Assembly: GCA_009761415.1 (NCBI GenBank)
Contig: QUOL01000011.1
Coordinates: forward strand, 62,001 to 126,000
Reading direction: 5' to 3'
Origin: Sarcomyxa edulis
Lineage: Eukaryota; Basidiomycota; Agaricomycetes; Agaricales; Mycenaceae
DNA length: 64,000 nucleotides
Shown: in pieces, positions 815-17,399 of the stretch
Layout: each line of letters opens with the position of its first letter
Position numbering within the stretch: the first letter of the stretch is position 1
Notes under the pieces: model-generated
The model's input: the letters and a program-made list of their open reading frames with translations, nothing else
Databases searched by the model: none
What the model was told of the DNA's origin: nothing
Program-made: the position numbers and the translations under genes

Positions 815-823
815 CTTCCTCCT
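815..823 (-). other. Polypurine tract (PPT)
   Basis: The minus strand reads AGGAGGAAG directly against the TGTGAGGATG end of the 3' LTR. A purine run at exactly this place is the expected plus-strand primer for reverse transcription and fixes the orientation of the element. Confidence 0.8.
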
Positions 824-921
824 AACTTTTAAATATCGACCGTCCCCGGTCGATCATCCGGAGGGCAAACACAACAACGTGTCCGTGACCGAAACAGGGC
901 AAGGACGACCGGCCAAGGACC

Positions 922-927
922 TATAAA
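922..927 (+). promoter_or_regulatory. TATA box of antisense gene 1
   Basis: TATAAA 52 nt before the ATG at 974. The same box occurs 47-57 nt before the start of each of the five paralogs. Confidence 0.6.
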
Positions 928-973
928 TTCCAAGGTCAAGACAGCCAGGGCTTTCCTGAAAGCAACAAGCCAA

Positions 974-1756
974 ATGGATCCCATAGCAAAAGAACTCTTC
1001 TTTACGCGCTGCCTCGATCTGGACGGGATAGATGGCGATATTACGATGGCAACTTTCCTCGGATACCTGCGTAACAATATCCGTCCCATGGTTCACCTAG
1101 TCGTCAGCTGCATTTTTCAAGATGCTGTGGCGGACGTTCTCCTTCCGGAGTTCTCGAGTCACGGTGTATACACGTTGAGAAAGCACGTTAAAATCTTGTG
1201 CCAGCACATGGTGAGTGCGTGTGCGCCTTTCAGGGGGTCCGTGCTAATTGCGAAGGTTAAGGTATTCATGCTCAGACTTAGATGGGTACTGAAGGGGAGG
1301 TGCATGGACGATACCACGGAGCCGTTTCCCAAGGAAGCAGTGACCGCCGTTTACCAGGTGCAGCGATGTGTCCACGTCGTAGGGTTTTCCGGGGATCAGG
1401 ACGAGGACGAGGCACATAAGATCGACGTTATCTTGTACTTCATAGAAGAATATGCCCGCCGATCGACATTTGGCGTCGCTTTCGATTACATCGAGGCGGA
1501 CCCGCGTGGTCGGTTCCATGCGCATGCCGTGTTGAAGAAGCATCCATACAGCGGTCCCAGGGTACATCGAGATGGTACGATTAGTACGGACAGGGGCAAC
1601 AGCCTCGAAGGGGAAGAGAATCCGGCTAACAACGAAGACGAAGGCATATCCGTCATAAGTATTGCAACGGACGACGAGGACGAAGAAATGGAGGTGGCCG
1701 AGGTAGAAAGGGCCTTGTCCGGTAAGAATTCTGACACTTTAGCGGTGCGGCAATGA
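974..1756 (+). CDS. Antisense paralog 1 of the retrotransposon gene island (unknown function)
   Basis: Open for 260 codons on the strand opposite gag-pol, just inside the 3' LTR. I recognise no known family. It belongs to a five-member local family. The first part carries FLGYLRNNIRPM, matching the F-R-x-LRPM core of the others, and the second part carries FPKEA, matching the (I/V)PSE motif. The C-terminal ~60 residues are strongly acidic (DDEDEEMEVAEVE). A good donor, GTGAGT at 1,211, sits after codon 79, phase 0, exactly where paralogs 2-5 have introns. Here the frame stays open through it, and the only in-frame acceptors I see are AAG (ending 1,255 or 1,261). Whether the 45-51 nt are removed is undecided; the product is 243-260 aa. 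Confidence 0.6.
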   Translation: MDPIAKELFFTRCLDLDGIDGDITMATFLGYLRNNIRPMVHLVVSCIFQDAVADVLLPEFSSHGVYTLRKHVKILCQHMVSACAPFRGSVLIAKVKVFMLRLRWVLKGRCMDDTTEPFPKEAVTAVYQVQRCVHVVGFSGDQDEDEAHKIDVILYFIEEYARRSTFGVAFDYIEADPRGRFHAHAVLKKHPYSGPRVHRDGTISTDRGNSLEGEENPANNEDEGISVISIATDDEDEEMEVAEVERALSGKNSDTLAVRQ

Positions 1757-1972
1757 GCTGATCGGAGAGGCACAGTCCAGCCACTCGCGAGCTTGGCAAC
1801 ACACGGGGCATTTCGCCTGCTTTTGGAGACGTTATCCGAAGAGGAGAGGAACGGTTTGATTGGCGGGGCAGCGATTATTGAACAGGGACTAAACCGCTTG
1901 TCGGGGGCATGAGGCGGCGAGAAGAGGGAAGGGTTCGGAGAGGTGATCGAGGGCATGCAGTCTTCATGTACA

Positions 1973-1978
1973 TATAAA
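1973..1978 (+). promoter_or_regulatory. TATA box of antisense gene 2
   Basis: TATAAA 50 nt before the ATG at 2,023 and 35 nt before an earlier in-frame ATG at 2,008. The family spacing of 47-57 nt favours the start at 2,023. Confidence 0.6.
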
Positions 1979-2022
1979 CGACGAGTCCCGTCGTGTTGAA
2001 AATCGAAATGCCTGCCCGCAGT

Positions 2023-2592
2023 ATGCAAATGGCTCGCGAGAGGCTCTGCGACTACTTCATGACGCTGAACGTCCCGTCCTTCATTCGACCCGTCTTCTAT
2101 CCGCACGAGGGCTTCGATGGATTCTTTCGCAAGCGCCTTCGTATGATGTTCGGTGTCATCCAGGCAACGCTTCCTCATAGGGTGACAGCATTTCCCGATG
2201 ACACCGATAGCGTTATCGGGCAGTATACGCTGTCGAGGCGGCTTATGCGGTTTTTCGTTGAGAACGTCGTACGGGCTTCCACCGTCTTCAGCGGGGCAAC
2301 GCAGAGATACTAAAAGAATCCTTCTGCGCAGGAACTCATCGTTGCATACCGTCAGCGGGCCAGGACCGATGCCAACGCCGCCGAATTCAAAATTCCGTCA
2401 GAGGTATCCCGTATGATGAAATTCAGTCTTATCGTTTATGACAAGGTCGGGTTTCATGGGGACTGGGCCCTCAGCACCGTCGGTCAGAGGAGGGAAATGC
2501 TTCAGTCACTAAAAGACGAGGCCGACGTTAACGCTTCATTGACTGGCGGGGCAAAGGAGTATCCCGAATTTGAGGACCTGGTGTTCTGGTAA
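2023..2592 (+). CDS. Antisense paralog 2 (unknown function)
   Basis: Two exons, 2,023-2,268 and 2,332-2,592, joined by a 63-nt intron (donor GTACGG, branch-like TACTAAAAG, acceptor GCGCAG, phase 0); about 168 aa. Without splicing the frame stops inside the intron, so splicing is needed for the conserved second half. Exon 1 has GFDGFFRKRLRMM, the family LR-core. Exon 2 has IPSEV and, nearer the C terminus, YPEF; both positions recur in paralogs 3 and 4. ATG 2,008 would add five residues but leaves almost no leader after the TATA box. No signal peptide, membrane segment or catalytic motif is visible. Predicted features are short amphipathic, probably helical stretches. Function unknown. Confidence 0.62.
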
Positions 2593-3609
2593 GCAGGCAC
2601 CGTCGGTCTCGTTCTTTGGGCCCCTCAGAGGGATACTAATAGTCGGAAATCCGCATTTTAGAGCGCACGCGTAGCGGGGAAGCTTTCCTGGATGTGACCG
2701 AAGGGGTTTTTGTCGTCGTTGGTACCTTAATGAATAAACACTCCTTTCGCGTGCCGTGTTTTTAGAGATCTTGTAGTTTATGGAATGCACTGTCAGTTCG
2801 GAGGGCAACAACGGTCTCGGGCAGCCTCCCAACCTCCTTTACAAAGGGTACCGATGTCCGATGATTCCACCCGCTGTGCGCAGTCATTTGAATCGCGGAC
2901 AGTCCGTAACTCCGTCAGCGGCTCTTGATGAGAGGAATGTTCAGAGGGGAGGCGAGTGAGATGAGAACGGAGAGAGGTTATCAATGCTTTCAGAGCTTTT
3001 CTCCTTTACAATTTCGCTATATCGCTCAGTGGCCTGGTCATCATTTCGTTCTTCCGTAGCCTCGCCCTTATACGATGTCAGGATGATCTTCTCGTCCCGT
3101 TCAATAACTCGGCCGGCGCAAGATGCTGTTCTCTTCTTCAAGATGATGCAGTTGCATTTCTACAGCGCTCAAAGCCGACAGCCGTCAAGCGCCAGTGGCT
3201 TCATGAAGTCATAGTCGTTTAGATCGAGGTGGCTTGCGTCCTGACCGTCGTTGTTCTTACGGTGCAGTTGAGACTGTTCGGGTTAATACGTGTGCGAGCG
3301 ATGTGACTGTGAACTCGCGGAATCTTTGCGAAGGAAACGAGACACGGCGAAGTGTATCAGGTGGGGCAAGGACCTGCGACAATAGTCGACAAAGATGGTC
3401 CCAGGGTAGCGGCGCGACGTGGCGGCCAGCTCGTGTTCTTTTGCATGTGGCATTCGCAGTCGTTCCGTGGGCATCTATACCGAAGTACAGGCATTTTTAC
3501 TGCTTCTGATAAGGCATGGTCCGGAAAATCCAACGGTTAACAGTTGCCGCACGGAGTCCGTTCGGACACCTCTTATCGGTCCGAGACGTCAGTCCTAAGT
3601 CCGACGAGG
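2593..3609. other. About 1 kb without a convincing gene between paralogs 2 and 3
   Basis: Six-frame ORFs here are short and show no domain. One weak lead is 3,140-3,205 (+), where a frame reads QLHFYSAQS, resembling the start of exon 2 of paralog 4 (VHFHSQW). This could be the remnant of a sixth paralog, but no LR-core or PSE motif could be placed. The 70 bases before the TATA box at 3,610 are rich in the word GTCCGA, which also recurs in the LTR. Confidence 0.35.
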
Positions 3610-3615
3610 TATAAA
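3610..3615 (+). promoter_or_regulatory. TATA box of antisense gene 3
   Basis: TATAAA 49 nt before the ATG at 3,659, preceded by several GTCCGA words. Confidence 0.6.
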
Positions 3616-3658
3616 GAACGCCAGCTGGCGCAGGGTAGCCATCATTATTCCAGCCAAA

Positions 3659-4254
3659 ATGTCGCATGTCGTTAGTTCATCGTTTACTCAAGCTCTCCGA
3701 GACGAGTTTTTGTCGTATGCCCATCCTCCCGAAGTTCTTGCCGGGGATTTCGCTCCTACCGAGGGCTTTACAAACTTCCTTCGATTCCGCCTCCGCCCTA
3801 TGGTGGAGATCGTTGAGCGGGGGTACGCGGCTTATCTTATAACGAGTTCCCCAAGAGACACTGTTGAACCAATCATATGGAGCGAGACGAAAGGCTGGTT
3901 CCGCATCGTGTTGGATCATTTGGTAGGCGTCCGTGTTTCCCTCGGTGAGCTTCGGAGTGTCAACCTTACGTCTTCTAGGATGCCATTCTACGGTTTAGGG
4001 ATAGGGTGACGGCAATTGGCCGAGGAGACGAGGCCGTGGTTCCGTCAGAAGCGTTGCGCCTCGCAAGCATGGTGCAGCTATTCCTTATCCATCACGGAGT
4101 TGAGCTCGGGTACGATGAAGATGTACTTGTGAAGAGGAAGGATTTAACGAAGGAGTTCCTTTGGTCTATCGTCCCTGTAATGCACCGAGAGGCAGTTGCC
4201 GTAGAATTTCCGGAGTACGTGATACGGTTGGCAGGGGAGGGTACGAGCAAGTAG
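3659..4254 (+). CDS. Antisense paralog 3 (unknown function)
   Basis: Exons 3,659-3,922 and 3,979-4,254 with a 56-nt phase-0 intron (GTAGGC...TTCTAG); 179 aa. The intron contains a frame stop in the second-exon frame, and the spliced frame joins two open stretches exactly. Exon 1 contains GFTNFLRFRLRPM, the best match to the family core. Exon 2 contains VPSEA and later EFPEY, matching paralogs 2 (YPEF) and 4 (DWPEY). No known domain was recognised. It lies 404 bases 5' of paralog 4 and has its own TATA box, so each gene appears to be an independent transcription unit rather than part of an operon-like transcript. Confidence 0.65.
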
Positions 4255-4292
4255 AAGGGGTGTCCGATAGCTAAATAGCGCGATATTTTTAG

Positions 4293-4298
4293 TATAAA
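4293..4298 (+). promoter_or_regulatory. TATA box of antisense gene 4
   Basis: TATAAA 47 nt before the ATG at 4,340 and only 39 nt after the stop codon of paralog 3, so the intergenic region is very compact. Confidence 0.6.
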
Positions 4299-4339
4299 GA
4301 GGGTGAATCAATTCCTCCGTACAGGTCACCGCAGAGCCC

Positions 4340-5058
4340 ATGAAAATTATGGAACCCCTACACCAAGTCCTTTTGAACACTCTTGCCCAAGAGGCAGCAA
4401 CGTTCGATATCCTTGATCGTGACGGAATGATTCACTATCTCAGGTGCCTCCTGCGCCCCGCTGTCGGCCTCGTTGCCGATTTTATATTCCGTGAACTCGG
4501 GCCCGATGGCTACTTCGTAGCTTTAACTGGTCGCGAGAGGGTTCCCTACTACTGCAATGCGCAAATCGTGTTGCTCCTCGCGGTACGTTGGTCTAAACTC
4601 GACCCTTATCGATTTTATCATTGAACGGGTTTTCACTTGATCGGTAACAGGTCCACTTCCACAGTCAGTGGCAGGACCTGAACAAGCAGGACAGACGATT
4701 ATACACGATTCCGTCCGAGATGAATAGAACGATCAGCCATTTGCGCTTGATTTGTCGGGCTGTCCGAATTCAGCCAGCAAGCCCCATTCATTGGGAGGTC
4801 GAAGCCGTCCGAGCTCTTACCGAGCTTAGCATACGCGCCCTGGCAGCTTACGCGTCGGCTGAAGATGCCTTCGATTGGCCGGAGTACGAGAAGCCCGGGG
4901 TTGCCGCGTTGGAAAGCGCGATGACCAGATCGATCCGTGTCGATCTCCTCGAAAGGGTCGTACCTAAGCGCGTTGTCGTAGTCGAGGGGGAGTCCGAAGG
5001 TGCAGGATATAGCGACGCAGAGGACTGGCCAGGGTCGGAGGAGGAAACGACGGAGTAA
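4340..5058 (+). CDS. Antisense paralog 4 (unknown function)
   Basis: Exons 4,340-4,582 and 4,651-5,058 with a 68-nt phase-0 intron (GTACGT...GTAACAG); 216 aa. Exon 1 encodes 81 residues with MIHYLRCLLRPAV, the family core. Exon 2 carries IPSEM and later DWPEY at the two positions conserved among paralogs, followed by an acidic tail (SEGAGYSDAEDWPGSEEE) comparable in charge to that of paralog 1. The intron runs into a stop if retained. Unknown function; no transmembrane segment beyond a moderately hydrophobic patch around FIFREL is visible. Confidence 0.65.
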
Positions 5059-5102
5059 AGTAACGCTCCCAGAATCATATGCCACTTATTGTAGTCTGCA
5101 TA

Positions 5103-5108
5103 TATAAA
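5103..5108 (+). promoter_or_regulatory. TATA box of antisense gene 5
   Basis: TATAAA 57 nt before the ATG at 5,160 and 45 nt after the stop of paralog 4. Confidence 0.6.
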
Positions 5109-5159
5109 CCTCCCCGAATCGTTTGCTCTGATCCTTAAGTCAGTAAAGTTCCATCAACG

Positions 5160-6095
5160 ATGTCCTTTATTCTCCGTTTGTCTGCAAATCGCTTTCCCGA
5201 GAATCCCCAGGATCCTGACCTCGAGAATGAGAGGTCTCCGACCACCATCTGGTCTCGGTCAATTCGTAGCCTCCTAGGCATCGTTCATCTCTCCGTAAAT
5301 GGGAGGTGTCCGACGGACGTTCCTCTCGAGGAAAGGCTCTGGGTCAGGACCCTCCTCACCCGGATCGTCAATTACGTAGTAAGCGGCTCGCTTGTTTTTC
5401 CTTCATCGTTCCTCTTTCAACATCGTCCGTCCAGCATCAAGCTATGAAACTCCGAGCCTCCGAGGCCATTAAATCAGGCTCTTGGGATACCATTCCAATT
5501 CCCGCTCAAGCCACCACTACCGTCGCCATGCTCGAGTTCTTTCTGAAGAATTTTGGTTTCGAGGGGGACTATGTTGCGGTCAACGTTAGGAACGTTGGGT
5601 ATCTTTTATCGTCGGTGAAGAGCGAGATGGTTGCCCAGGCGCGTTTTACATATTTCTTGGTTCTCATTCTTCGTTAATTTATTTCTTTTCGTCTTTTTCT
5701 AGGTCGGATACGTCGGAACTGCCCTGGATTTCGATGGATTTGAGTCGTCCGATGCGTACAACGTGTACGGCGTGCTTCCCGAAATGAAGCAGCAGCAAGT
5801 TAACGACCTGCTCAGATTGCGGGCGGCTTTCGTTCCCAATCCTATTCTTCCTGCTCCTCAATATCCTCTTGTCCCCTTCGTCGCGAGGTTTCCCGTGAAA
5901 GAGGGCTTTGAAGAGGTCCGTCTTCACGGAGACATTCCCGATCCTCGTCTCGGAGGCCTCAACCAAGTTTATTTCGGCCCCGGAGCTTTCGGACAGGTAG
6001 ATCCTCGGAACGCTGCGACGCGTGGGAGAGGTCGCGGAGGGGCAAGGGCTAATCGTCGAGGAGCTGGAGCGGTACCTGATACTACCATTCTGTAG
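5160..6095 (+). CDS. Antisense paralog 5 with Arg-Gly-rich tail (unknown function)
   Basis: Three exons: 5,160-5,378, 5,435-about 5,638, and 5,703-6,095; about 271 aa. Intron 1 (56 nt, GTAAGC...CCAG) is phase 0 at the family position, after IVNYV. Exon 2 carries IPAQA, a variant of the PSE motif. The second intron is open to two readings that both keep the frame: a GC-AG donor at 5,639 (CAG|GCGCGT) or a weak GT donor at 5,630. The last exon is specific to this member and ends in an RG-rich stretch (RGRGRGGARANRRG), suggestive of nucleic-acid binding; that is inference. The N-terminal LR-core is the least conserved of the five (IWSRSIRSLL). Confidence 0.6.
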
Positions 6096-6770
6096 ACCGT
6101 CCGATGAGTTTCCGATTCCTTGTCTCTTGTAAAATAAATGCCTGATAACAGGCGCATAATTCGTTCATAATTTTGCATAGTGTGAGACCCAGCGTCTCGG
6201 TCTCCTTGTAAATCTGTAAAACGTCGTGAGTTGCATACTTTTATCATATCAGCGCATAATTGGGTTCGGTCTGCGTCGGTAGATCCGCTGGCCAGCCAGA
6301 TCTACCGTCTCCGAACCCCGCATGGTCGTTTTCTTCCAATTTCTTTCCGATCGTTTGTCGTCCGTGGTCTTTTCGCAGTATTTCGTCACTGTGTACAGGA
6401 GAGCCGTCGCTCTCTATCCGTTATGGGTTTGAGGTTATAAGCCCCATGCGCCAACCATACTATTCTTTCTTGCTTGTCGCGTATTTCGATTCTTCGTATT
6501 TCTTCCTTTCGCGTTCTTCCAATTTGACGTTCGTATTTTGACTTCCAGGTTTAATCCATTCCTCCTCCCCTTTTTCTTCCACCTTATAGACCATCATTCT
6601 TCTTCCTTGTGAGCGGTTGTTTACCAAAGGCTTTATCGATTCGGCAATCGATTCGGCTTCTTTCCACGTGGCTGGAGATACCCGGGCTGAGATTCTTTTT
6701 AGGAGGGTTCTTTTATTCTCGAAACCTCTTTTATTGACGGTATCCTCTTCGTCCATCAGGATTCTTAGAT
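6096..6770. other. Spacer between antisense genes 5 and 6
   Basis: No gene of the five-member family is visible. AATAAA-like sequence shortly after 6,095 could serve polyadenylation of gene 5. A 98-codon ORF on the minus strand (6,756-6,460) is very rich in Lys and Glu, but it follows from the pyrimidine-rich plus strand and has no domain, so I do not call it. Confidence 0.3.
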
Positions 6771-8256
6771 ATGTCGTCCACCACTGGTGCCTTTTCAGGG
6801 AAGTTCAATAAGTCGATCACGGGTTTGCTATATTCCTTCATCGTCTATAGTTGGTTTGATAACAAGCTTTTGTTCAGATATTCTGGATGGCACCGTCGCG
6901 CAGCCTCTCTTGTCCGCCCTTTCTGGTGATACTGATTTGCGAACCCTCTCCGCTGCTCAGCGAAGCACCCTTATATCGACTAGACGAATTCCCGGCTCGC
7001 TTTTCGGCGTTTACAGGCAATTAATGCCTGATCATATTACGAAGTCGTCGAAAGAATTGAGGTCCATGATGTTCACCCTTTTATCGATTGGTTATCCTAG
7101 GGCTCCGCCGGCCTATTTCCACAATTTTCCGGAATTGAATTCGTCCGTTATAAAGTTCATCAACAACTTTCCCTATGTTCCCGACTTTCTTCTCGAGGCC
7201 ATTTCGTATAATCTTCCGCGCACCGTGGCCGTTGCTAATTTCGATCCTGAGTTTTCGAGCGACGAGTTGGCCGATTCTTGTAAGTACTCTTCCCGCGCCC
7301 GTAAGCCGGTCATTTAAAGTTGCCCGCGTCCGAATGGTCGTAGCTGCTAGTGATGTCGAGCCCCAAAGTGACTCTCCAGGGAGGGAACGGACCAGCCAAC
7401 CTACCCGTCGGTTGAGAAAAGTTACAGGCTCCCCCATACCCAAAATCACCGTCCTTCCAGCGGCCGAAGCCTATCGAACACTTTCCTCAGCGAAACGGGA
7501 TAGAGCCTCCAGGAAGAACCGCCTCTTTTTTATCCGAGCCAGAGTCAGTCCTTCCCCGTATCTTATCCTATGTTTTCAAGTCATTGACCCCATCTTTTAC
7601 CTTCTTCAAGGACTACCGATGTTCCGAGTGTATTCGCAATGACGTTTCCTGCCCCGGTTTCAGGTCTCAAGCATGCGACTTCTGTGAAGGGAAGCAGTCC
7701 GCATGCAATCTCGTAGGTGGAGAGGATAACCTCAGTGAGCCTTCTCCTTGTAGTGACGGGCACAACTGCAACCATAGAAATTCTTTCCCCTTTTGTAGGC
7801 GAATTAATGGCTCGCGCTACCGGCTGTATCAAGGTCCTAAAAAGGCCCGAGGTCGTTTCCAGCGAGGCGTCCGGTGAGATTAAGACCTTGGCGAACCCGA
7901 CTGCTAGTTCGTCGGCCCTTCCCCTTCTTCGTAACGTGGCTTCTGGCTCCCTCTCGCGTATCGACCCCAGACGTCCAGTCATTCGCCTGTCTCCGGAGCA
8001 CCATCCTCGGCCACGATCTGATTCCAGTATCGCACGCAGCGAGAAAATGGATACCATCGTTCGCAATTCTAGGTCCCGTCTTCTTGACGGTGCCAGCGAT
8101 TCGTCCGCTTTTGGCGTGCTAAGCCCCGTTGTCGTTGATCATATGACCCCGATTATTGATCAAGTCATGAAGGAAATTGGTTTGGCGTATCGCGTCTTGA
8201 TCGAGGATGCTATCGATGAGGCGGACGAGGAGGAGATTGCTATGGCGTTCTTGTAG
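6771..8256 (+). CDS. Antisense gene 6: protein with Zn2Cys6-like cysteine cluster (retrotransposon cargo)
   Basis: Proposed exons 6,771-6,822, 6,878-7,279, 7,344-7,543, 7,611-7,716 and 7,778-8,256 total 1,239 nt, a whole 412-aa frame. The central exon encodes CSEC...C...CDFC...C with spacing C-x2-C-x6-C-x7-C-x2-C-x6-C, which fits the fungal Zn2Cys6 binuclear cluster pattern (C-x2-C-x6-C-x5-12-C-x2-C-x6-8-C). Unlike typical transcription factors it is internal, and the ~215 residues before it are an unknown mostly helical region followed by a basic Ser/Arg-rich linker. The C-terminal part ends in an acidic helix (IDEADEEEIAMAFL). The fourth acceptor is AAG and the donor at 7,717 is weak, so exon borders are provisional. 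It may bind DNA or RNA; function unknown. Confidence 0.55.
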
Positions 8257-8450
8257 CACAAGTCCACCTTCTCGTATGTTCTTGTTTGTTTTTCGATAAA
8301 CCGTCGCAGATTTCCGACTTTGTACGCCCCCCCCCCTTTTTTCTCGATGGACATCACCTTTAATGTAGAAATATGAATCGATTTCTTGTTAAATAAGCCA
8401 GATGAATATAAGGTGAAAATTAAGAAGTCCTTTTCGTTGCCTCGCCGGCC
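8257..8450. other. Convergent 3' spacer between antisense gene 6 and pol
   Basis: It separates the stop of plus-strand gene 6 from the stop of minus-strand pol by 194 bases. It contains a run of about ten C followed by T (from about 8,327) and AT-rich sequence that could carry polyadenylation signals for both strands. No ORF. Confidence 0.4.
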
Positions 8451-11400
8451 CTACGTCCTCTTTTGTCCCGTTTCTGGCGTTAACGTTGTCCCTTCGTGTT
8501 CCGGTTTCCTGGGGAACTGCCAAAGTCTCGTCCTGTATGTTCCTGGTAGCGAGTCGTCCCCTGGCTCCACCAAGCTGTATTCGTCTGGTGTATCGTCGTC
8601 CGCCATCTCGTTCAGCTGTTTCGTAGTTTTACCTACTAAAGTTGTGACTTGGATAGTGATTTCGTTCCTCCTGAAGTAGGGTACCAGTCGGTGCGCCGCA
8701 AATCGATGTTCTGCGATCGCACCATTGACTTCGGAGAGTATATAACTTCCCGATTTCGTTTGCCGGACAACAACCATCGGACCTATATATCGGGGCTTCA
8801 TCTTGTTATTCAGTTCCTTCTCAATCCTTGTGTTTCTGATGAGTACGAGCCTCCCCGGGGCGAACTTGAAATCGTAAATCTGCCCTTCATACTTCTTCAG
8901 GAACTGCTCCGCCGACTCGAGCCTGGCCTTGTACTTGTCTCTCTGTATTTTCGATAGCTCCCTTTCCCGTCTTTGAAGCTTCATCGCTCTTCGCGTTATG
9001 AGTTCTCCGAAGTCCATTTCTTCGTCGATAAACGGGTGCATGTATGTTGACTGTTCCAAATCAAACGGATGTATCGCCTGGACACCGTGCGCTATGTAAT
9101 ATGGCGAATACCCCGTGGATTTCTGAATTGTAATCCGCTCGGCCCAAAATATAGCGTGCGCTGCTTTCGGCCAAATCGACTGGTTCCCATCGCACGACTT
9201 AATGAGCGATTCTCGGACATCGTAATGCTTTCGCTCGATGACCCCTTGCGCTTGTGAATTATAACCCGAAATTCGTATATGATTGATTCCGTACTGCTTT
9301 TTGAGGTGATCGACCGCTTTGACCCAAGGTTTCCCATTGTCCGTGACGATCTCCATTATACTTCCCCATCTGCATAGGACATCTTCGAAGATGAAGCTGG
9401 CCAGATTAATAGCACTCTCATTTTTCAGCATTCTCCACTCCGGATATGAGCTGAGCGAGCATCGTCCATGAGCAATCACATGAAAGCCATCAACTGTAGG
9501 AAGGTGCATTGTGTCCATATAGATTTTCCCGAATAGCGGAAACGGAACCGCCACGGTCGGAGGAATGTGGATCTTCGAACTGTTTCGGAGTTGGCATTGG
9601 TGACATGTCCTGACGAACCAGGACACATCTCTGCTCATACTTGGCCACCAAAACCTATCCATCAGCCTGACCTTCGTTGTCCACGTTGCTTTATGCCCGA
9701 ATTTATCATGAAGTTCGGACATTATTTGAATCCTCTTTTCCGGTGGGAGTACGATTTTGTGTTTCAACTGCCTGTCCTTTCTCCATAATTGCCCATTTAG
9801 GACAAAGAAGTGAGCTGCTTTCTTCATAAACGCTTTGAATTGTTTATCGGACAATCCTTCGGGCCTGTTCGCTGTTTCAAGGTACTCAGTTATTCGTACG
9901 AGTTCTTCGTCTTGTTTGATGGCGAGAGTCGACTGGGGAATAACCACGTTCGGGACAACTTCGCCAATAAGGACTGCCGATACTTCTCTTCTTCGGCCAG
10001 GTAGCGAGGCGAAATATGCCTTTGCTATGGCTTCGGGGAAATCGCGGTCATTTATCATTAATCGATGAGGCGGCACCGTATCCAATATTGACCGAGCCCT
10101 GTTTTCGTTCCAGTTTAGCATTTCGACCGAAAATCCGCATGCCCTATCGATCCATTCTTCGACGTCGTCTTCCTCTTCCGAGTCTTCCGGGGCCTTTCGT
10201 CGTCTAGATAGACCGTCCGCCGGCCCCATCGCCGTTCCTGGAATGTGCTCCAGTTTGAACGTGAACAGCTGGATAGCTGCTATCCATCTATTGATAGCCG
10301 CATTAGGTTGTATATCCGGATTATTTAGCATTCCTTTGATATATTTTGCATCTGTTCGGACCGTCAGGTTTTTAACCCCGACTATGTATAACCTATAAGC
10401 CCTGAGGGCTCTGAATAAGCCATAGAGTTCGATTTTTGCCTGGGAGTATCCTTGCTCGCGTTCATTCCATGTAATAGAGCCAAATCTAGATGGATATTCG
10501 ATCCCGTCTTGTCCGAGTTGCAGCAGGACACAGCCCATCGCCCTCCAAGACGAGTCGACAACTAGATAGACCATCCTTTCCGAGTGGTAGTCTATTGCTC
10601 GGAGTGCCGGAGAGGTTATTAAGAGATGTTTGAGCGTTTCCATGGCTTTTATCTGTGGCAATCCGAAGACGAAATCGACATCCTTTCGTGTAAGCATGAC
10701 CAGCGGCCGCGCATGTAGCGAAAAGTTCTTTATGAAGATTCTCATTAGTCCGAGCGTTCCTAGGAAGGCTTGGACATCTGTTAAATCTTCACAGGGTGGC
10801 CAATCTTTGATTTTCTGGACCTTTGTTTCATCCGGGACCCTGCCATGCACGTTACAGCGGTGGCCAACAATGACGACCGATGGTACTGCCAGAAATGATT
10901 TCTTGGCATTGAACGTTCCTTCTGCATGCCTTATTCGGTGAACAATTCGATTGACATTCACCAGGTGTTCCCACACGAATCTCCTTATCCCTGGGTTGTC
11001 CGGTATTGTTTCGTATTCCCCAGTTTCCGATTGGTAGTACGTTGCTGGTCCCTTCACCGGACAATCGTCCACGAACGGTTGTGTGATGCTCGGAATCTCG
11101 TCTTGCAGAATGAACGAAACATCTCCCTGTTGTATCTGGACCGAATTAGTGTATCCTTGTGGAAGCCTTGTTAACCTGAAAGTGCCCATCGGCGTTTGGA
11201 ACGTCGTAAGATCCCTTGAGGGTATAGCGAGGATTCTGTGGTCGAATCCCACAAACAGATCGAACATTCCATATATCGTGGCCCCACCGAAGGACTCCGC
11301 ATAGACTTCGACGATCGGCGGGCAGCCCGCGTCCTTTATCGTTACAGCATTAAGAGGCTGTAAGTCATGCACAATCCTTAACGATACCCCATCCTTCTTT

Positions 11401-12122
11401 GGCACGCAGAACCACCTCGACCTGTACGATGAATTCGATGGTTCATATACACCTGCCGCTATCTTGTCTTTGACTGCCTGTACCACTTTATCTCGTATCC
11501 CCGGTGGTATCGGAATGTTTTTATAGCTCCAAGGGGTGTGTTCGAGAACTGGGAGCTTAATCGGTTCGAAGTAGTCCGATCTGAAGTGGCCCTTTTCCAT
11601 CTCGTTCCAGGCGAACGCCATTTCGTGCGTTTTGATTATATGATGGACTAGTTTTTCTTCCTCAGGCCATAAAAAGCCGTCCGGGTTGATATTCTGTTCC
11701 ATCATCCTTTCCATCGTATATCTCGTGCCTGGTTCGAATCGCGGTGGATGTGTTGGTAGCTCAGGCAGCGTTTCCAGCGGGTCCGACGGGAACTTTCGTA
11801 CTATCCTGTATTCCTCTGGTAGCGTAGCAGCGACCGGTTGGGTCCTTTTATCTACCGGTTTGTACTTCTTCCCCTTCTTTCTCTTCTGCGGTATTTTGTT
11901 GTCCGAAAGCGTCAGGCATTGCGTATTTTCATTTAGTATACAATTTTCACATGAGGGCTGGTTGAGGGTTTGCTCCGCTCCCTCCGTTTCCGTGTTTTCG
12001 TAGCGCGTTCCGGTAAATATGTTACTTGCTGGGTGGCCCAGTCTGGAAGGGGAAAATCGTGTCGTCAAGTTTGTCGTTACATTATGATCGTTAATTTCAG
12101 CAGTCTGGGTATCGTCGGTCAC
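8451..12122 (-). CDS. pol: Ty3/gypsy Pol: reverse transcriptase, RNase H, integrase
   Basis: Residues counted from the first start-like codon at 12,122. RT spans roughly 210-400, with LRIVHDLQPLN, the first catalytic Asp in MFDLF (~288) and FVDD (350-353) in place of the usual YVDD/YIDD. RNase H begins near 525 (VVDSSW). Integrase has a His-His-Cys-Cys zinc motif (HDKFGHKATW...CHQC), then D (MDTMHL), D (VTDNGK) and E (GVIERK) of the DDE core. No chromodomain is seen at the C terminus. The frame is open upstream of 12,122 into the end of gag and is -1 relative to it, so Pol is probably made as a Gag-Pol fusion by frameshifting rather than from its own start. No internal stop: the element looks coding-competent. 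Confidence 0.9.
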   Translation of the reverse strand: MTDDTQTAEINDHNVTTNLTTRFSPSRLGHPASNIFTGTRYENTETEGAEQTLNQPSCENCILNENTQCLTLSDNKIPQKRKKGKKYKPVDKRTQPVAATLPEEYRIVRKFPSDPLETLPELPTHPPRFEPGTRYTMERMMEQNINPDGFLWPEEEKLVHHIIKTHEMAFAWNEMEKGHFRSDYFEPIKLPVLEHTPWSYKNIPIPPGIRDKVVQAVKDKIAAGVYEPSNSSYRSRWFCVPKKDGVSLRIVHDLQPLNAVTIKDAGCPPIVEVYAESFGGATIYGMFDLFVGFDHRILAIPSRDLTTFQTPMGTFRLTRLPQGYTNSVQIQQGDVSFILQDEIPSITQPFVDDCPVKGPATYYQSETGEYETIPDNPGIRRFVWEHLVNVNRIVHRIRHAEGTFNAKKSFLAVPSVVIVGHRCNVHGRVPDETKVQKIKDWPPCEDLTDVQAFLGTLGLMRIFIKNFSLHARPLVMLTRKDVDFVFGLPQIKAMETLKHLLITSPALRAIDYHSERMVYLVVDSSWRAMGCVLLQLGQDGIEYPSRFGSITWNEREQGYSQAKIELYGLFRALRAYRLYIVGVKNLTVRTDAKYIKGMLNNPDIQPNAAINRWIAAIQLFTFKLEHIPGTAMGPADGLSRRRKAPEDSEEEDDVEEWIDRACGFSVEMLNWNENRARSILDTVPPHRLMINDRDFPEAIAKAYFASLPGRRREVSAVLIGEVVPNVVIPQSTLAIKQDEELVRITEYLETANRPEGLSDKQFKAFMKKAAHFFVLNGQLWRKDRQLKHKIVLPPEKRIQIMSELHDKFGHKATWTTKVRLMDRFWWPSMSRDVSWFVRTCHQCQLRNSSKIHIPPTVAVPFPLFGKIYMDTMHLPTVDGFHVIAHGRCSLSSYPEWRMLKNESAINLASFIFEDVLCRWGSIMEIVTDNGKPWVKAVDHLKKQYGINHIRISGYNSQAQGVIERKHYDVRESLIKSCDGNQSIWPKAAHAIFWAERITIQKSTGYSPYYIAHGVQAIHPFDLEQSTYMHPFIDEEMDFGELITRRAMKLQRRERELSKIQRDKYKARLESAEQFLKKYEGQIYDFKFAPGRLVLIRNTRIEKELNNKMKPRYIGPMVVVRQTKSGSYILSEVNGAIAEHRFAAHRLVPYFRRNEITIQVTTLVGKTTKQLNEMADDDTPDEYSLVEPGDDSLPGTYRTRLWQFPRKPEHEGTTLTPETGQKRT

Positions 12123-12166
12123 CGTAAAATACTTGACCGATATGCTTTTTCGAAGGTTCGTCTCGA

Positions 12167-14800
12167 CTACTGACGGCCTCCGACCGGGCGAAAACCCACC
12201 GATGTCGGTGAAGATCGTTTTGGTTTGACGAATGTTGGAACTGTGACAACCTTCCCTGTATTAGGGCAGGTCAAGGTCAGGTCCTGGTTTCCGGTCGTGT
12301 AGTCCTTGGTAACGCATCCCGTTAGTTTAAAGAATGGTCGTCCCATTAGTATTTCGAACGGAGCGTTTTCCACCACATGGACCTTCAGATAGATTTCGAG
12401 TCCTCCGATATTAAATTTAAGGTCCTCGATAAGCCCCGTAGTCGTGTCATGCTGGCTATTGGCCGATTCCATAGTGATTTTATGGTCCGGTCTCAAGTGT
12501 ATTCCGAGTTTCTGCCAAAGTCCCTTGTTCATGGCAATTATTTCCGACCCTCCGTCCAACACACATTCGACCTTTTCATCCTCGATAGTCGGGTAGATTA
12601 CTCTGAGTTTTTCAATGGATGAGCCTGTGAGGAGAATTTCTTCATCCGGTCCGTTCGGATTTTCGTACCGAAGGATATAACTGGAGTCCGGTTCGTCGAT
12701 GTTGTCCGGATTAATCGACTCGAGTCGTCCAACCGTCGGAATCCTTTTAGTAGACACCAGTTCCTTGTACTGTTTTCTGACATCTAGGCTAAGCGAAAGT
12801 AATTCTCTTTGTGAGATGGATATCTGAGTATCAAGTGATCGGTTCAAGACCCTTTTTGCCAACTCCGGATCTTCTATCGGCGTTGAGAATTTATACTGCG
12901 GACCAGTTTGTACCTGCTTCCTTCCTTCGGTCGCATCCTTTTCGAATTCTACCGTTTTCCTTTTGGGAGGAACTTGGCTGACCGGATCGTCAGGGAGCGG
13001 CTGAGGTCGTCCGGGGGGTCCTTTCCTTCGCATAGCAGGTACAGGTTTCTCCGTAGGTTCCAGCGGTTTGCCATTACGGGTTTTTCTTGCTTGTTCGTTT
13101 GCTAGGACTTCTCCGATGTCTTCTTCTTCTTCCTCGATCTCCTCGATCCTTGATTCTTTGTAGTACGAACTAGAAGTTTCTCCGGACGATGCGAACCACA
13201 TGGTAGAGGCATGGGGAGGTGCATCGCGTACAAAGTTGACGCCATTTATAATCGACCCCGGATACATTTCATGGTACCTGTTGATTCTGGCAGCCAAGTT
13301 GATTCCTTCTATATTTGAAGGAACCCATGCTCCATTCGGAAGTACGACTTTTCCGTTCATGTTTCGCATGCATTTCCCATCTCTGATAAATTCGGCGACC
13401 TTCGGACAATCTCGAATGAAGTGAGACGTGTCCGAACAGAACGCACAAACCGAGCCGTTTCCTGGACCGTTTTGAGTTCTTCGGACAGGGGATCGATCGA
13501 GGAATGGGTTAGGTGCCCTTCCCTGCGCCGGGACATAGCCTTGGTAACGGTTATTGTACGACATGGCCTGGTTTGCCCCCATGTTTGATAACGTGGCTGC
13601 CAACGTACTCATGCTTGCTGCCAACTCTCTATTAAGCGCCTTTATTTCCCTCGACATTTCGTCTATTTCTTGTTTAACTACCGGATCCATTCCAGTCGTC
13701 TGTGTTCCGCTGTAAAGAACCTGTCCTCCTAGGATATGTTGGCCTTCCTTGTAGAGGTCATCGATCATATATGGTTCGTCGAGTTCCTGGTCGGGCTTCT
13801 TGATTTTTAGTCGGGCCATTAGCTGGACCAGGAACTGCGGGTGGAGTCCTTTTACGTAGAGGCGATTCTCTTCTTTCGCAGAGATCTTGTTTTGGTCTTT
13901 GAGATGATGCGATATCCTGGTGAAAGAACGATGGTATTTTCCAAAGTCCGATTTGGTGTTAATCGGTATTGCTGCTTCTTTTGCAAGCAAGACCTCTAGA
14001 TCATTGAGCGTATATTTCTTTTTCTCGTCTGATCCGGGATAAAGCTTCCGGACTTCGGATTTGAAGGCGTCCCAGTCTTTTGCGGTAACCACCTTCCAAA
14101 GCGATTCGTCTTCCGCCCCAAGGTAGTACCTAGCCATGTCGATTTTCTCTTTATCCGACGCTTTCCCAGCCGCCGTGCATACTTGGTCTATGTCTTCGAA
14201 ATACCTTGTAACAGATTCGTCGAGACCATCAAATTTTGGAGCATCCCTGCTGGTCCGGGTGGGCGGCGGTCTTAATGTCATTGTCGGAAGGTTTTTCTGT
14301 ATTCGGGGTTGGGATATTCGAGGGGTTATGCGATTCGATGGTAACGGTATCTGAGACGGAGGAGGCGGCTGAGTCTGCGTTTGGTCTTGTGTTGAAGTTT
14401 GGCGGGAAGGGATGGATAGGATTCGAGATTCCAATTGGAGGTGAGATAAGGGTTCAGCTGGTAAACTGTTCGACGGTTCGTTTCCCTGGGCTAGGCTAAC
14501 CGAGTCTTCCGAGGGCGTAAGGGAGGCCTCTGTTGAAATAGTGTCCGATTCAACGGAACGTGGGAGCAATTCTTCGTCTGAGGTATCTATGTTGGAAGGA
14601 GGTGTTTGGGATGGCAACCAATCAAGATTTATTGACGGTACGTCCGATAGCGGTGATGATTCGGGCGGAGTCGTTTCTTCGGAAAGGTCGCTTTGTGGAT
14701 ATTCGACGGATAAATGTGGTATACGGGAAGTTTGAGAGAAGGCTTGAAGCTCTGCTTCAGCTAAACGAGTTTGGGCTCGGGTAACTCGTCTAGTAGACAC
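12167..14800 (-). CDS. gag: Gag polyprotein with zinc knuckle and C-terminal aspartic protease
   Basis: 877 aa from an ATG ten bases after the PBS. Residues 1-180 are Ser/Thr/Pro-rich and disordered. A capsid-like helical region follows (KFDGLDESVTRYFEDI onward, ~190-360). A CCHC zinc knuckle CAFCSDTSHFIRDC lies mid-protein. Near the C terminus is the protease: active site LDGGS (Asp ~749) and later ILMGRPFF. DGGS departs from the usual D(S/T)G. The protease sits in the gag frame, so it is made in equimolar amount with Gag unless regulated otherwise. The ORF ends in TAG at 12,167; in-frame readthrough would soon hit TGA, whereas -1 slippage at 12,191-12,197 enters pol. Confidence 0.88.
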   Translation of the reverse strand: MSTRRVTRAQTRLAEAELQAFSQTSRIPHLSVEYPQSDLSEETTPPESSPLSDVPSINLDWLPSQTPPSNIDTSDEELLPRSVESDTISTEASLTPSEDSVSLAQGNEPSNSLPAEPLSHLQLESRILSIPSRQTSTQDQTQTQPPPPSQIPLPSNRITPRISQPRIQKNLPTMTLRPPPTRTSRDAPKFDGLDESVTRYFEDIDQVCTAAGKASDKEKIDMARYYLGAEDESLWKVVTAKDWDAFKSEVRKLYPGSDEKKKYTLNDLEVLLAKEAAIPINTKSDFGKYHRSFTRISHHLKDQNKISAKEENRLYVKGLHPQFLVQLMARLKIKKPDQELDEPYMIDDLYKEGQHILGGQVLYSGTQTTGMDPVVKQEIDEMSREIKALNRELAASMSTLAATLSNMGANQAMSYNNRYQGYVPAQGRAPNPFLDRSPVRRTQNGPGNGSVCAFCSDTSHFIRDCPKVAEFIRDGKCMRNMNGKVVLPNGAWVPSNIEGINLAARINRYHEMYPGSIINGVNFVRDAPPHASTMWFASSGETSSSYYKESRIEEIEEEEEDIGEVLANEQARKTRNGKPLEPTEKPVPAMRRKGPPGRPQPLPDDPVSQVPPKRKTVEFEKDATEGRKQVQTGPQYKFSTPIEDPELAKRVLNRSLDTQISISQRELLSLSLDVRKQYKELVSTKRIPTVGRLESINPDNIDEPDSSYILRYENPNGPDEEILLTGSSIEKLRVIYPTIEDEKVECVLDGGSEIIAMNKGLWQKLGIHLRPDHKITMESANSQHDTTTGLIEDLKFNIGGLEIYLKVHVVENAPFEILMGRPFFKLTGCVTKDYTTGNQDLTLTCPNTGKVVTVPTFVKPKRSSPTSVGFRPVGGRQ
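12191..12197 (-). promoter_or_regulatory. Putative -1 ribosomal frameshift heptamer between gag and pol
   Basis: The minus strand reads G GGT TTT in the gag frame, a fit to the X XXY YYZ slippery heptamer. It lies eight codons before the gag stop. Pol is in the -1 frame and stays open from here through 12,122. I did not establish a downstream pseudoknot. Confidence 0.6.
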
Positions 14801-14810
14801 CTTTTAAATC

Positions 14811-14830: not shown

Positions 14831-16534
14831 TGTGATGAGGACTGCGGTGCTAGGGGTAGATGGGCTAGACTCCTAACTGTAGTTCGCCTCTAGGGGGTAA
14901 GGTGACGTTTTCTCGGAGGGGATTTTACGTAGCGAGAAATCCTAATGCCCAGTGACTTGTATTTGGATAATGTGTTCGTAAAACGGTGGCGAGGTGGGTA
15001 TGAGATGATGGGGTGTAAGGAATGCTTCGGACTTGTAGGTTCGTTCTTGGTAGGCCGTTAGAGGCTTCGGACAGCTATAAGTTCGTTCTTGGAAAACCTA
15101 CGAAGGCTTCGGACAGCTTTCGAAGAGCTGACCGATGCCTTGGACGGCTTATAAGATGTCTTCGGAGAGCTATCGAGGACTTCGGACAGCTATAAGTTCG
15201 TTCTTGGAGAACCTATGAAGGCCTCGGACAGCTTTCGGAGAGCTGACCGATGCTTTGTATGGCTATAAAACGTCTTCGGAGAGTTATCGAGGGTTTCGGA
15301 TAGCTCTGAACTGATTTCGGAGAGCTTCCTTTGTCCGAGAGTGGTACTGCCGACTGAATCAAGTCCTTTTCTCTTGTTTGACCGACTCCTGTAATCGTTC
15401 CTTGTCTCGGTTTCAGAAGTATGAGAAAGAGATAGAATTCCTATAGAGAGTGACTGGGTAGTTGGTCGATTCGGGTATTTTCTTCTGGTTCTCGTCCACA
15501 CTGGTTCTATCTACCGTTCTCCATGTCCTATCCTACTTTATATATGAATTCCTTCCCTGTCCTTGCCTAATTCTTCACCCCGAGTGCCGTCCCAAGGTCC
15601 CCGAGATCTCTAATGATGAAACAGATCCGGTATTGATTTTGATGTGTCCGAACCTCGCTCAGTGTGAAAGGTTAGGGCCTGAGGTGTTTTCTGAAAGTAT
15701 TGCAAGGTGAATTTGTGAAGGGATGAAACATGTCCGAGTGAGCAGGATGATAGGGAGCTTCCGATAGATTTTTCCAAGATGCGACGGCCAAAGTTGTCCG
15801 AGAGGAGTGAATTTGATGTGGGTTGCTAGGCGGAGACCTGTAGTGTCTTTGTTAGCGGGCGATACCTCGCTTACAAGTGCTGTGTCATGTGATAAACACA
15901 GAGGGAAGAATATTCCGTAGCACCACTTGGTCAGGGTGGACGGAGGTCTTAACGAGGCGTCCAGATGCATGGAAAGGTGTGAATTGAGATTGCAATGTAA
16001 AGGGAATATGTCCGATTTGATAGGAAGAACAGCTCAGGGCAGCAAGCATCACGTTGGCGGTATGTCGACTGGTGGCGATGTTTTGTCGGTGAAGTATCTC
16101 TCGATGAGGTCTTCTAGAGGTGAAAGGGAGCCTGCTGAAACGATTTGGGATCTGTCCGAAGGATCTAGGGGGCCGCGGAGAGGTGATCGAGTATATTGGA
16201 CTTTCGGTCAGGTGAAACGACGATAGGGAATTGGGTTCTGGCGGTAGATTTCCCTCGGAGAAGTTGTTCGTGTGTGATTTCAAGTATTCCGAAACGTTCT
16301 GAGACGTGACCGAAGGCGGGTTAGCGTTTCGTGAGTGGATGAAGAGGCCGCTTTCGGGGAGAAACCGTCAAGTAGCGGGTACTTGGTGTCTTTCAGTGTC
16401 CGGTCATTCGAAAAGTAAGTCGTTTGTGGTGATGCCGCCAGTATCTCTGTAGTTAGCTATGTCTGGGGAGTCGCATAAGAGTAGGTTGTTGTATAGTTGT
16501 CGATTCCTTGGCTGGGGATGCTGGCATCCTCACA
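14831..16534 (-). repeat. 5' LTR of the giant element, complete (1,704 bp)
   Basis: The boundaries are TGTGATGAGG on the left and CATCCTCACA on the right in plus-strand reading, giving short TGTGA/TCACA terminal inverted repeats. It is flanked by the PBS on the inside. Bases 15,721-16,534 are repeated at 1-814. The LTR contains a 115-bp tandem repeat and an unusual density of the word TCGGA/TCCGA. No coding capacity is supported. Confidence 0.92.
15066..15300. repeat. 115-bp tandem repeat inside the LTR
   Basis: Two units start at 15,066 and 15,181 with TTCGGACAGCTATAAGTTCG, and a partial, diverged unit precedes them near 15,026. Each unit contains several TCGGA(C/G)AG words and TATAA-like motifs (CTATAAG, TTATAAG, CTATAAAA). 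Such arrays in an LTR often mark the promoter/enhancer region; that role is inference. Confidence 0.75.
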
Positions 16535-17399
16535 GCGTGTCATCTGCACGGATAAGATCCGTAACTTGAAATCGCTGGATGACTAGGTCGGCCGATCGGT
16601 CAGTGCATAGGATCGGTCAGTCGCACGTTCGAGTCCTTATACCAAGATAAGTGTCGGCCGATCGGTTGGTGCATATTATCGGTCGGTTGCGCGTTCGAAT
16701 CCTTAGACCAAGATAAGTGTCGGCCGATCGGTTGGTGCATATTATCGGTCGGTTGCGCGTTCGAATCCTTAGACCCAGATAAGTGTCGGCCGACTTTGTA
16801 ACCGAACCTTCTACAGAAAGCGATCGCGTTTGGCCTCCTACTAAGTCGATCGGCAACGTTCCAATTTGAATTCGTAGGATAGGCCTTGGTCTTACATTGT
16901 CGGCAGCGATAGCCAGGTCTCGGATCCTTTCGGCGACCGATCGGCTGATAGATAGGGAAGTTCGTGAATTGTGTATCAGGAGTGATAGGCTAGGCCACCA
17001 GGTACGTGTGGGCGCAAGGTACAAGGAGTGATAGGAGCGTGTGTGTGGATTGGGCAATCGGTATTTCCAGAGGAAAATGCGTTTTGGCAGGGAGTTCATG
17101 GGTAACTGTATGACGGACGGGATCTTTTTAGGAGTCGTGGAGTCGTCTATTGGAAACTTCAGTCGTGATTTCTTCTAGACTGTCGTTAATTTTTCTGGTG
17201 ACTGGTTGAACTCTTCATCTGTGGGAATACAGGGGTAATGGCTGAGGAAAGTCGTCAAAGCGTGAACGCAGTACTGAGCGGGTAGGTGAGGGATGGTCTT
17301 TCGGGGAGAAACCTAGATCGGCATGGGGTTAATGTCTTCGTACTCATGAAATGGATAGGAACTAGGATGTCGCAGGCTAGGGATGTTCACATCCTCACA
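16535..17399. repeat. Diverged LTR-like segment related to the giant element
   Basis: The end at 17,376-17,399 (GCTAGGGATG...CATCCTCACA) resembles the LTR end at 16,511-16,534 (GCTGGGGATG...CATCCTCACA). An internal 16-bp match, CTTTCGGGGAGAAACC, lies at a similar distance from the end in both. The left end is not clear; the giant element's LTR directly abuts it. It is most likely an older solo or truncated LTR of a related family in the same orientation. Confidence 0.55.
16587..16795. repeat. 66-bp tandem repeat, three units plus a partial fourth
   Basis: Units start with GTCGGCCGATCGG at 16,587, 16,653 and 16,719, and a fourth begins at 16,785 but breaks off after about 10 bases. Units 2 and 3 are nearly identical; unit 1 has about ten differences. 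Each unit contains GTTCGA(A/G)TCC, the core of a tRNA B box, but no accompanying tRNA structure. Confidence 0.85.

Follow-up and report, generated by a model that had tools for sequence, protein, structure and literature searches.

A predicted cluster of spliced antisense genes, very probably ancient and inherited, in a Ty3/gypsy retrotransposon lineage of Sarcomyxa edulis

The usual view is that a retrotransposon cannot keep spliced genes over long periods, since the RNA cycle removes introns. Here we describe a Ty3/gypsy element of the fungus Sarcomyxa edulis with a cluster of intron-bearing gene models on the strand opposite to gag-pol. The element lies in a window of 64,000 nucleotides (positions 62,001 to 126,000 of contig QUOL01000011.1, assembly GCA_009761415.1), and positions are those of the window unless a contig or locus is named. 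The cluster, referred to as the island, occupies 815-8450 and is flanked by the pol stop codon and the 3′ long terminal repeat (LTR) of the minus-strand element, which measures about 17 kb in all. These boundaries had been proposed in an initial annotation of the window and were borne out: position 814 is the last of the left LTR, and the minus-strand pol frame stays open as far as 8451. The genome searched for copies and relatives comprises 35.6 Mb in 40 contigs.

Results

The plus strand of the island holds six gene models, G1 to G6. G1 lies at 974-1756 (exons 974-1210 and 1262-1756) and encodes 243 amino acids, G2 at 2008-2592 (exons 2008-2268 and 2332-2592) encodes 173, G3 at 3659-4254 (exons 3659-3922 and 3979-4254) encodes 179, and G4 at 4340-5058 (exons 4340-4582 and 4651-5058) encodes 216. 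G5 at 5160-6095 has three exons (5160-5378, 5435-5638 and 5703-6095; 271 amino acids). G6, which in the window is of the form we call type A, has five at 6771-8256 (6771-6822, 6878-7279, 7344-7543, 7611-7734 and 7799-8256; 411 amino acids). The ten predicted introns are 51-68 nt long; nine begin with GT and one, intron 2 of G5, with GC, and all end in AG. Across 30 aligned copies of the island, the introns of G3 and G4 and intron 1 of G5 are GT/AG in 30 of 30. The G2 intron is GT/AG in 28 of 30, the remaining two (L033 and L034) having unrelated sequence there, and intron 2 of G5 is GC/AG in 29 of 30, being disrupted in L016.

Within the island the plus strand has seven TATAWA motifs, two of which overlap, and the minus strand has two. 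The motif precedes the ATG of G1 to G5 at -52, -35, -49, -47 and -59/-57, respectively; the chance of a TATAWA at -75 to -35 from a random site is about 3.4%. No TATAWA was found within 120 bp of the start of G6. The initial annotation had counted at least six plus-strand genes, mostly with introns and TATA boxes, and we likewise find six, all with predicted introns and five with a TATA box.

G1 to G5 probably form a tandem paralog family, judging from sequence comparison. The G2 and G3 proteins match at E = 1e-8 and the other pairs that link the five at 2e-4 to 0.02. The first intron falls at the same place in the alignment, in G4 to within a few residues. Neither G1-G5 nor G6 matched a Pfam family above its cut-off, and a search of PDB sequences yielded no family. 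We also asked whether G1-G5 share ancestry with the N-terminal domain of G6 or with gag; profile comparison gave no support for either.

The element itself has the parts of a Ty3/gypsy (Metaviridae) retrotransposon: LTRs with TG..CA ends, a flanking duplication, gag, protease, reverse transcriptase (by eye), RNase H and integrase. All lie on the minus strand. The 3′ LTR spans -889 to 814 (1-814 within the window, the remainder just before it) and pairs with the 5′ LTR at 14831-16534. Each is 1,704 bp long, begins with TG and ends with CA, and they differ at a single base (-504). Because the LTRs differ at only this base and GCGT flanks the element on both sides, we consider it a very recent insertion. 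Gag and protease share an open frame of 878 amino acids (12167-14803) with an aspartyl protease match (PF13975, 5e-8), and gag weakly matches DUF4100 (3e-5, which does not reach the Pfam cut-off). This match, the intron sizes and the PPC89-type host gene described below agree with a fungal, probably basidiomycete, host. The pol frame of 1269 amino acids (8451-12260) matches RNase H (PF17917, 1e-14) and the integrase zinc domain (PF17921, 6e-18). RVT_1 and rve were unmatched in pol at E ≤ 1 in the Pfam scan, and the reverse transcriptase core is readable by eye with FVDD rather than the usual YxDD.

We found the G3 region in 31 places in the genome at 96-100% identity. All 31 keep both exons of G3 open, and the frames of the six genes are open in most copies. 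The possibility raised at the outset, that other copies of the element would be without the region, thus does not hold. There are 14 near-identical full-length pol matches, 13 of which adjoin the G3 region; the fourteenth, on contig C17, begins at the contig end and has G6.

The 31 copies were sorted by right-hand module into 11 with G6 type A, five with type B and 15 with type C. Some type A copies are cut by contig ends or insertions, and one has most of pol deleted. Type B G6 is 79-80% identical to type A. Type C is a short form, with about 10 kb between the starts of its two LTRs. The six type C copies that were read match the window up to 6430 and beyond it only in the stretch around the other LTR, and their last 2.5 kb hold a G6 homolog of their own, G6-C. 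This is 27% identical to G6-A (E = 6e-27), with two introns common in place and phase. Gag and pol were unmatched by tblastn in all six of these loci. The genome-wide pol search, which did not extend to gag, gave no adjoining pol match for the other nine type C copies.

For the ratio of nonsynonymous to synonymous diversity among copies (piN/piS), those with an exon interrupted by an insertion were excluded and deleted positions were masked, which sets the number compared for each gene. The ratio is 0.078 for G1 (n = 8), 0.014 for G2 (n = 27), 0.085 for G3 (n = 30), 0.156 for G4 (n = 29), 0.134 for G5 (n = 11) and 0.106 for G6 type A (n = 5). It thus ranges over 0.014-0.156, with bootstrap upper bounds of at most 0.363 (0.400 in a subset). 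The ratio of nonsynonymous to synonymous substitution (dN/dS) among copies, which the initial annotation had put forward as a check, is well below 1 for all six genes. Variable sites at codon positions 1/2/3 number 3/3/17 in G1, 4/1/30 in G2, 4/4/25 in G3, 6/10/27 in G4, 7/6/31 in G5 and 5/7/34 in G6. Region-by-region diversity was computed with zero to three of the 30 copies dropped per region for unrelated or missing sequence. Some minus-strand open reading frames also stay open among copies, as shadows of the plus-strand exons.

Constraint is also found in the short form. Among type C copies alone piN/piS is 0.007 for G2, 0.081 for G3 and 0.151 for G4. The G6-C frame is full-length in all six type C copies examined, and dN/dS is 0.12-0.18 at a dS of 0.47-0.94 in 14 of 15 pairs, the fifteenth pair being near-identical. 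All 18 G6-C introns in these six copies end in AG (17 begin with GT and one with GC), and in three divergent copies the exons are 82-84% alike versus 66-74% for the introns. Since G6-C is constrained in copies without gag-pol, an antisense spliced gene appears to have been held by selection for a long time without a reverse transcriptase of its own.

The left and right parts of the copies differ in history. Position 6430 behaves as a module boundary: the left half (LTR and G1-G5) is nearly uniform, and the right half comes in types A, B and C, whose divergence is old. At synonymous sites G6-C has diverged about ten times as much as G1-G5, or more. When 30 copies are placed in a tree by their G1-G5 part, A, B and C intermix and do not sort by module type. 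Copies 22-25 kb apart on one contig have the left half in common and differ in the right. On C34, two copies separated by about 22 kb agree at 99.97% through 6.8 kb of LTR and G1-G5, beyond which one is type C and the other type A. On C40 a type A and a type C copy are 99.93% identical over 4.5 kb. As copies with different, old right halves share a left half, the left half has spread or been homogenized among elements. Either ectopic exchange or a switch of templates inside mixed particles would account for this.

We found counterparts of the cluster in a sister family whose pol is about 71% identical to that of this element. G1′, G2′ and G3′ occur in eight places and G5′ in nine; the sister places without G1′-G3′ are on C5, where the contig ends in G5′, and C15, where it begins just before G6′. 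Gene order and strand are as in the window, for example in the copies on C12 (from 1003047 down to 990038) and C16 (from 312030 up to 325030). On C12 the order is G1′ (1003047-1002313), G2′ (1001874-1001412), G3′ (1000292-999779), G5′ (998703-997808), G6′ (995395-994297) and pol (992028-990038). Spacing is wider in the copies on C2, C4 and C34, in the last due to a nested gypsy element. At locus L053, another gypsy element with gag and pol (2370-7252) is nested between G6′ and pol of a sister copy.

Protein identities of the sister orthologs, taken per aligned piece, are 28-59% overall. They are 40-48% for G1′, 38-39% and 31% for G2′, 40% and 28% for G3′ (E = 4e-4 and 0.01-0.02), and 48, 59 and 38% over the three pieces of G5′. 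The G2 query also matches G3′ of the sister family at E = 0.003-0.005. Because the orthologs are more alike than the paralogs, this array is older than the split of the two families. G5′ at C12:998218-998703 seems to be without intron 1 of G5, two query pieces being contiguous in an open frame, so that this intron would have been gained or lost while antisense. At the place of G6 the sister family has a plus-strand gene, G6′, in ten places (for example L053 1-1001), with the motif CX2CX8CX7CX2CX6C. G6′ was considered as the ortholog of G6 and dropped, homology being unsupported, and we treat it as a positional counterpart.

The initial annotation had noted that genes present elsewhere as ordinary host genes would speak for a chance capture. 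In the searches with the G1, G2, G3 and G5 proteins (G4 was not searched as a protein) all matches listed at E ≤ 1 lie within copies or fragments of this element or the sister family. Related proteins were found in other assemblies (P0001-P0008). P0001 matches G1 at 74% identity, P0002 is related to G2 (76-78% over the exons), and P0006-P0008 are 54-67% identical to the N-terminal exon of G6-C. A search of these assemblies with the whole G6 protein gave nothing and an exon-sized query gave three matches, probably because protein predictions in those assemblies break off at introns. Neither P0002 nor pol found a relative when each was used as query in a scan of viral contigs. The 51-nt intron of G1 is in frame and free of stops, so that the unspliced form is open too, and P0001 is also read through at this stretch. 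Intron retention in G1 could yield a second protein form.

Between G2 and G3, at 2822-3360 on the minus strand and thus in the orientation of gag-pol, lies a fragment of a host gene, 77-92% identical in four pieces to C6:547866-549128. The gene at C6 has a PPC89/Cep57-type centrosome domain (PF14197, 1.3e-12), and its neighbor is presumably a 2-oxoglutarate dehydrogenase gene, as judged by eye. A 54-nt GT-AG stretch of the host gene with an in-frame stop, which we read as an intron, is gone from the fragment. The pieces are separated by two other gaps, neither of them a clean intron. In one, 587 host bases are missing, exon sequence included, and the fragment has therefore also suffered deletions. 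At least 70% of the fragment is present in all 30 copies aligned there. From its sequence the fragment looks captured from host mRNA. Transduced host genes are expected in one or few copies, in sense orientation and derived from mRNA; G1-G6 are antisense, intron-bearing and many-copy, and only 2822-3360, itself in many copies, is host-derived, sense and intronless. The antisense genes cannot have entered as spliced mRNA. The initial annotation had argued that antisense introns outlast the RNA cycle, and this logic fits what we see: introns are present where the genes are, and the sense-captured host fragment is without its intron.

Both G6-A and G6-C contain cysteines spaced CX2CX6CX7CX2CX6C. 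This agrees with CX2CX6CX5-12CX2CX6-8C, which we take to be the consensus spacing of fungal Zn2Cys6 regulators. The cysteine spacing of G6 is like that of the fungal Zn2Cys6 transcription factors; G6 differs from them in falling below the cut-off of the family profile. With its Zn2Cys6-like cluster, G6 would most likely be a nuclear DNA-binding regulator of the element.

Discussion

Our data indicate that the island is very probably an ancient inherited antisense gene cluster of a Ty3/gypsy lineage, comprising six genes with splice signals, mostly intact and under purifying selection, four with collinear orthologs, and kept also in copies without gag-pol. The case for inheritance is made by the G1, G2, G3 and G5 orthologs together with selection from copy to copy. 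The initial annotation had suggested inherited cargo rather than chance; the 31 copies, the low piN/piS in every gene and the collinearity of these four orthologs agree with it.

Several observations weigh against this conclusion or parts of it. Not every copy is whole: the type C copy L043 is without G1 and G2, in the type A copy L042 G1 is missing and G2 incomplete, L049 has undergone rearrangement, and indels or a stop are present in G1, G2, G4 or G5 of a few copies. By sequence, G2 and G3 are firmly paralogous; for the other pairs the case is weak and leans also on the common intron place. The homologs in other assemblies continue into the predicted introns and so look like DNA or unspliced RNA, and no transcript was seen. 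A genome search with the G6-C protein misses G6′ at E ≤ 1, and direct comparison of G6 with G6′ gives a best tblastn match of 0.004, outside the cysteine motif, and a profile score of 3.9 bits (E = 0.002 for two sequences). The Pfam family Zn_clus matches G6-C at E = 0.11, with 13 bits against a cut-off of 21, and leaves G6-A unmatched. Two structure predictions were poor, with mean confidence scores (pLDDT) of 44 and 49.

On our reading, host RNA polymerase II would transcribe each gene from its own promoter, with a TATA box for G1-G5, and the transcripts would then be spliced. The LTR-driven genomic RNA would hold the complement of the introns, which the spliceosome would not recognize, and the genes would therefore pass through reverse transcription with their introns intact. 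G1-G5 would most likely be accessory proteins of the RNA-protein particle, or would counter host silencing. We offer these accessory roles, with the regulator role of G6, tentatively, as a proposal that falls somewhat short of being probable.

Copies without gag-pol keep the genes, so that either their products probably favor the copy that encodes them (cis preference) or selection acts on the cluster. For the constraint itself we see two live answers, cis preference of the products and selection through the host. It is possible, though we lean against it, that the cluster is a self-standing selected gene set, a small accessory genome which rides beside gag-pol or alone in the short satellite form and acts for its own copy. 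If so, LTR elements could have two separately selected gene strands, the sense strand for replication and the antisense strand for a spliced, promoter-driven program, and right-hand modules (G6 with or without gag-pol) would be exchanged by recombination.

The strongest competitor to a role in transposition is selection at the level of the host, or drive, in which the genes act on the host, for example by blocking rival elements, by supplying a helpful factor or as a poison-antidote pair. The constraint in type C copies, both in G2, G3 and G4 (0.007, 0.081 and 0.151) and in G6-C (0.12-0.18), is not easily accounted for if the products only assist transposition in trans. However, none of the genes has a Pfam match above cut-off, and their presence inside the LTRs of two families suits a function for the element equally; we regard this explanation as unlikely, if worth keeping in view. 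We think it improbable that the cluster is the genome of a once independent virus or mobile element, joined to a gypsy element by fusion, with gag-pol as the later part. The short LTR form has only antisense genes as far as found, it is old by the divergence of G6-C, and G1-G5 and G6 match nothing known, all of which would fit a fusion; yet pol stands beside the cluster in the same place in both families, and no relative came from Pfam, PDB sequences or the two viral-contig scans.

Antisense transcripts with possible regulatory roles are reported for other elements (PMC7264820, as far as its available text goes), and the island might likewise serve as antisense RNA or as a packaging sequence, its frames being by-products. 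The third-position bias and low piN/piS in six plus-strand frames disfavor this, as do the G6-C exons, which are better kept than the introns, and we consider it very improbable. Least credible of all, to the point that we give it hardly any weight, is that one copy picked up a multi-gene piece of host chromosome by chance, which is now decaying. The element does take up host sequence, as 2822-3360 attests, but the 31 copies and the purifying selection speak against such an event. For G1, G2, G3 and G5 it is refuted by the sister family, and among the matches listed at E ≤ 1 for these four none lies outside elements. For G4 the evidence against it is copy number and piN/piS, and for G6 these two together with the divergent types A, B and C and P0006-P0008.

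Antisense genes in retroelements have precedents. One of the closest is Retand, a plant Ty3/gypsy lineage, for which 104 antisense open reading frames were detected in one survey (PMC11963269). The parts of that survey available to us describe a long region between pol and the 3′ LTR, antisense frames in all survey clusters, a suspected DNA-binding product and some recently active elements without coding domains, all as in the element described here. Retand differs in having a TRP28 domain and in that the word intron does not occur in the main text of PMC11963269. By comparison, the S. edulis element has six intron-bearing genes, a paralog array and measured constraint in copies without gag-pol. 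TRP28 (PF04195) was unmatched in Pfam scans of the six antisense proteins, which are not of the Retand type in this respect. Maize Grande gene23 and rice RIRE2 also have an antisense frame between pol and the 3′ LTR, that of Grande with its own promoter and a nuclear protein (PMC7264820, in part). They differ from the island, with which they were compared through Pfam alone, in being described as additional open reading frames, and the main text of that paper does not use the word intron.

Among retroviruses, the HBZ gene of human T-cell leukemia virus type 1 (HTLV-1) and the APH genes of HTLV-2 to HTLV-4 are spliced antisense genes for mostly nuclear regulatory proteins, HBZ having spliced and unspliced forms (PMC10186651, from the portion available). 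These viruses have one antisense gene each, driven by the 3′ LTR, unlike the six genes here, five of them with a TATA box of their own. The LTR elements of bdelloids that have captured extra open reading frames (PMC5408684) and the giant Burro elements (PMC6431247) are likewise large with extra coding content; in the text available, the word antisense appears once in the former, on small RNAs, and never in the latter. It is also unused in the accessible text of a survey of fungal LTR elements (PMC3248453). In our literature search, among the matches listed and with subscription papers largely outside it, we noticed neither a fungal element with antisense genes nor a retroelement with a multi-gene spliced antisense cluster. 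The initial annotation had held a multi-gene antisense family to be undescribed. From the parts of PMC11963269 and PMC10186651 at hand, this stands for the multi-gene, spliced, paralogous layout, which appears to be new; it does not stand for antisense frames as such, since these are regular in Retand and HTLV-1 has a spliced antisense gene. We regard the Retand and Grande frames and HBZ as precedents.

If our reading is correct, the opposite strand has let an intron-bearing cluster be carried under selection, and at least four of the six genes predate the split of the two element families. Antisense accessory genes would thereby have a concrete, testable case beyond plants and retroviruses. 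It bears on how such genes stay selected without gag-pol and on how large a program a retroelement can hold. The element would also display both faces of the intron rule, with a sense-captured host sequence without its intron and antisense genes with theirs.

Other features of the window

The LTR contains an 85-nt direct repeat at 15065-15264, and three tandem 66-nt repeats lie just beyond the 5′ LTR at 16587-16784. Further on, at 17286-18509 on the plus strand, is what remains of another, different gypsy element; integrase, SH3 and chromodomain sequences are present in it.

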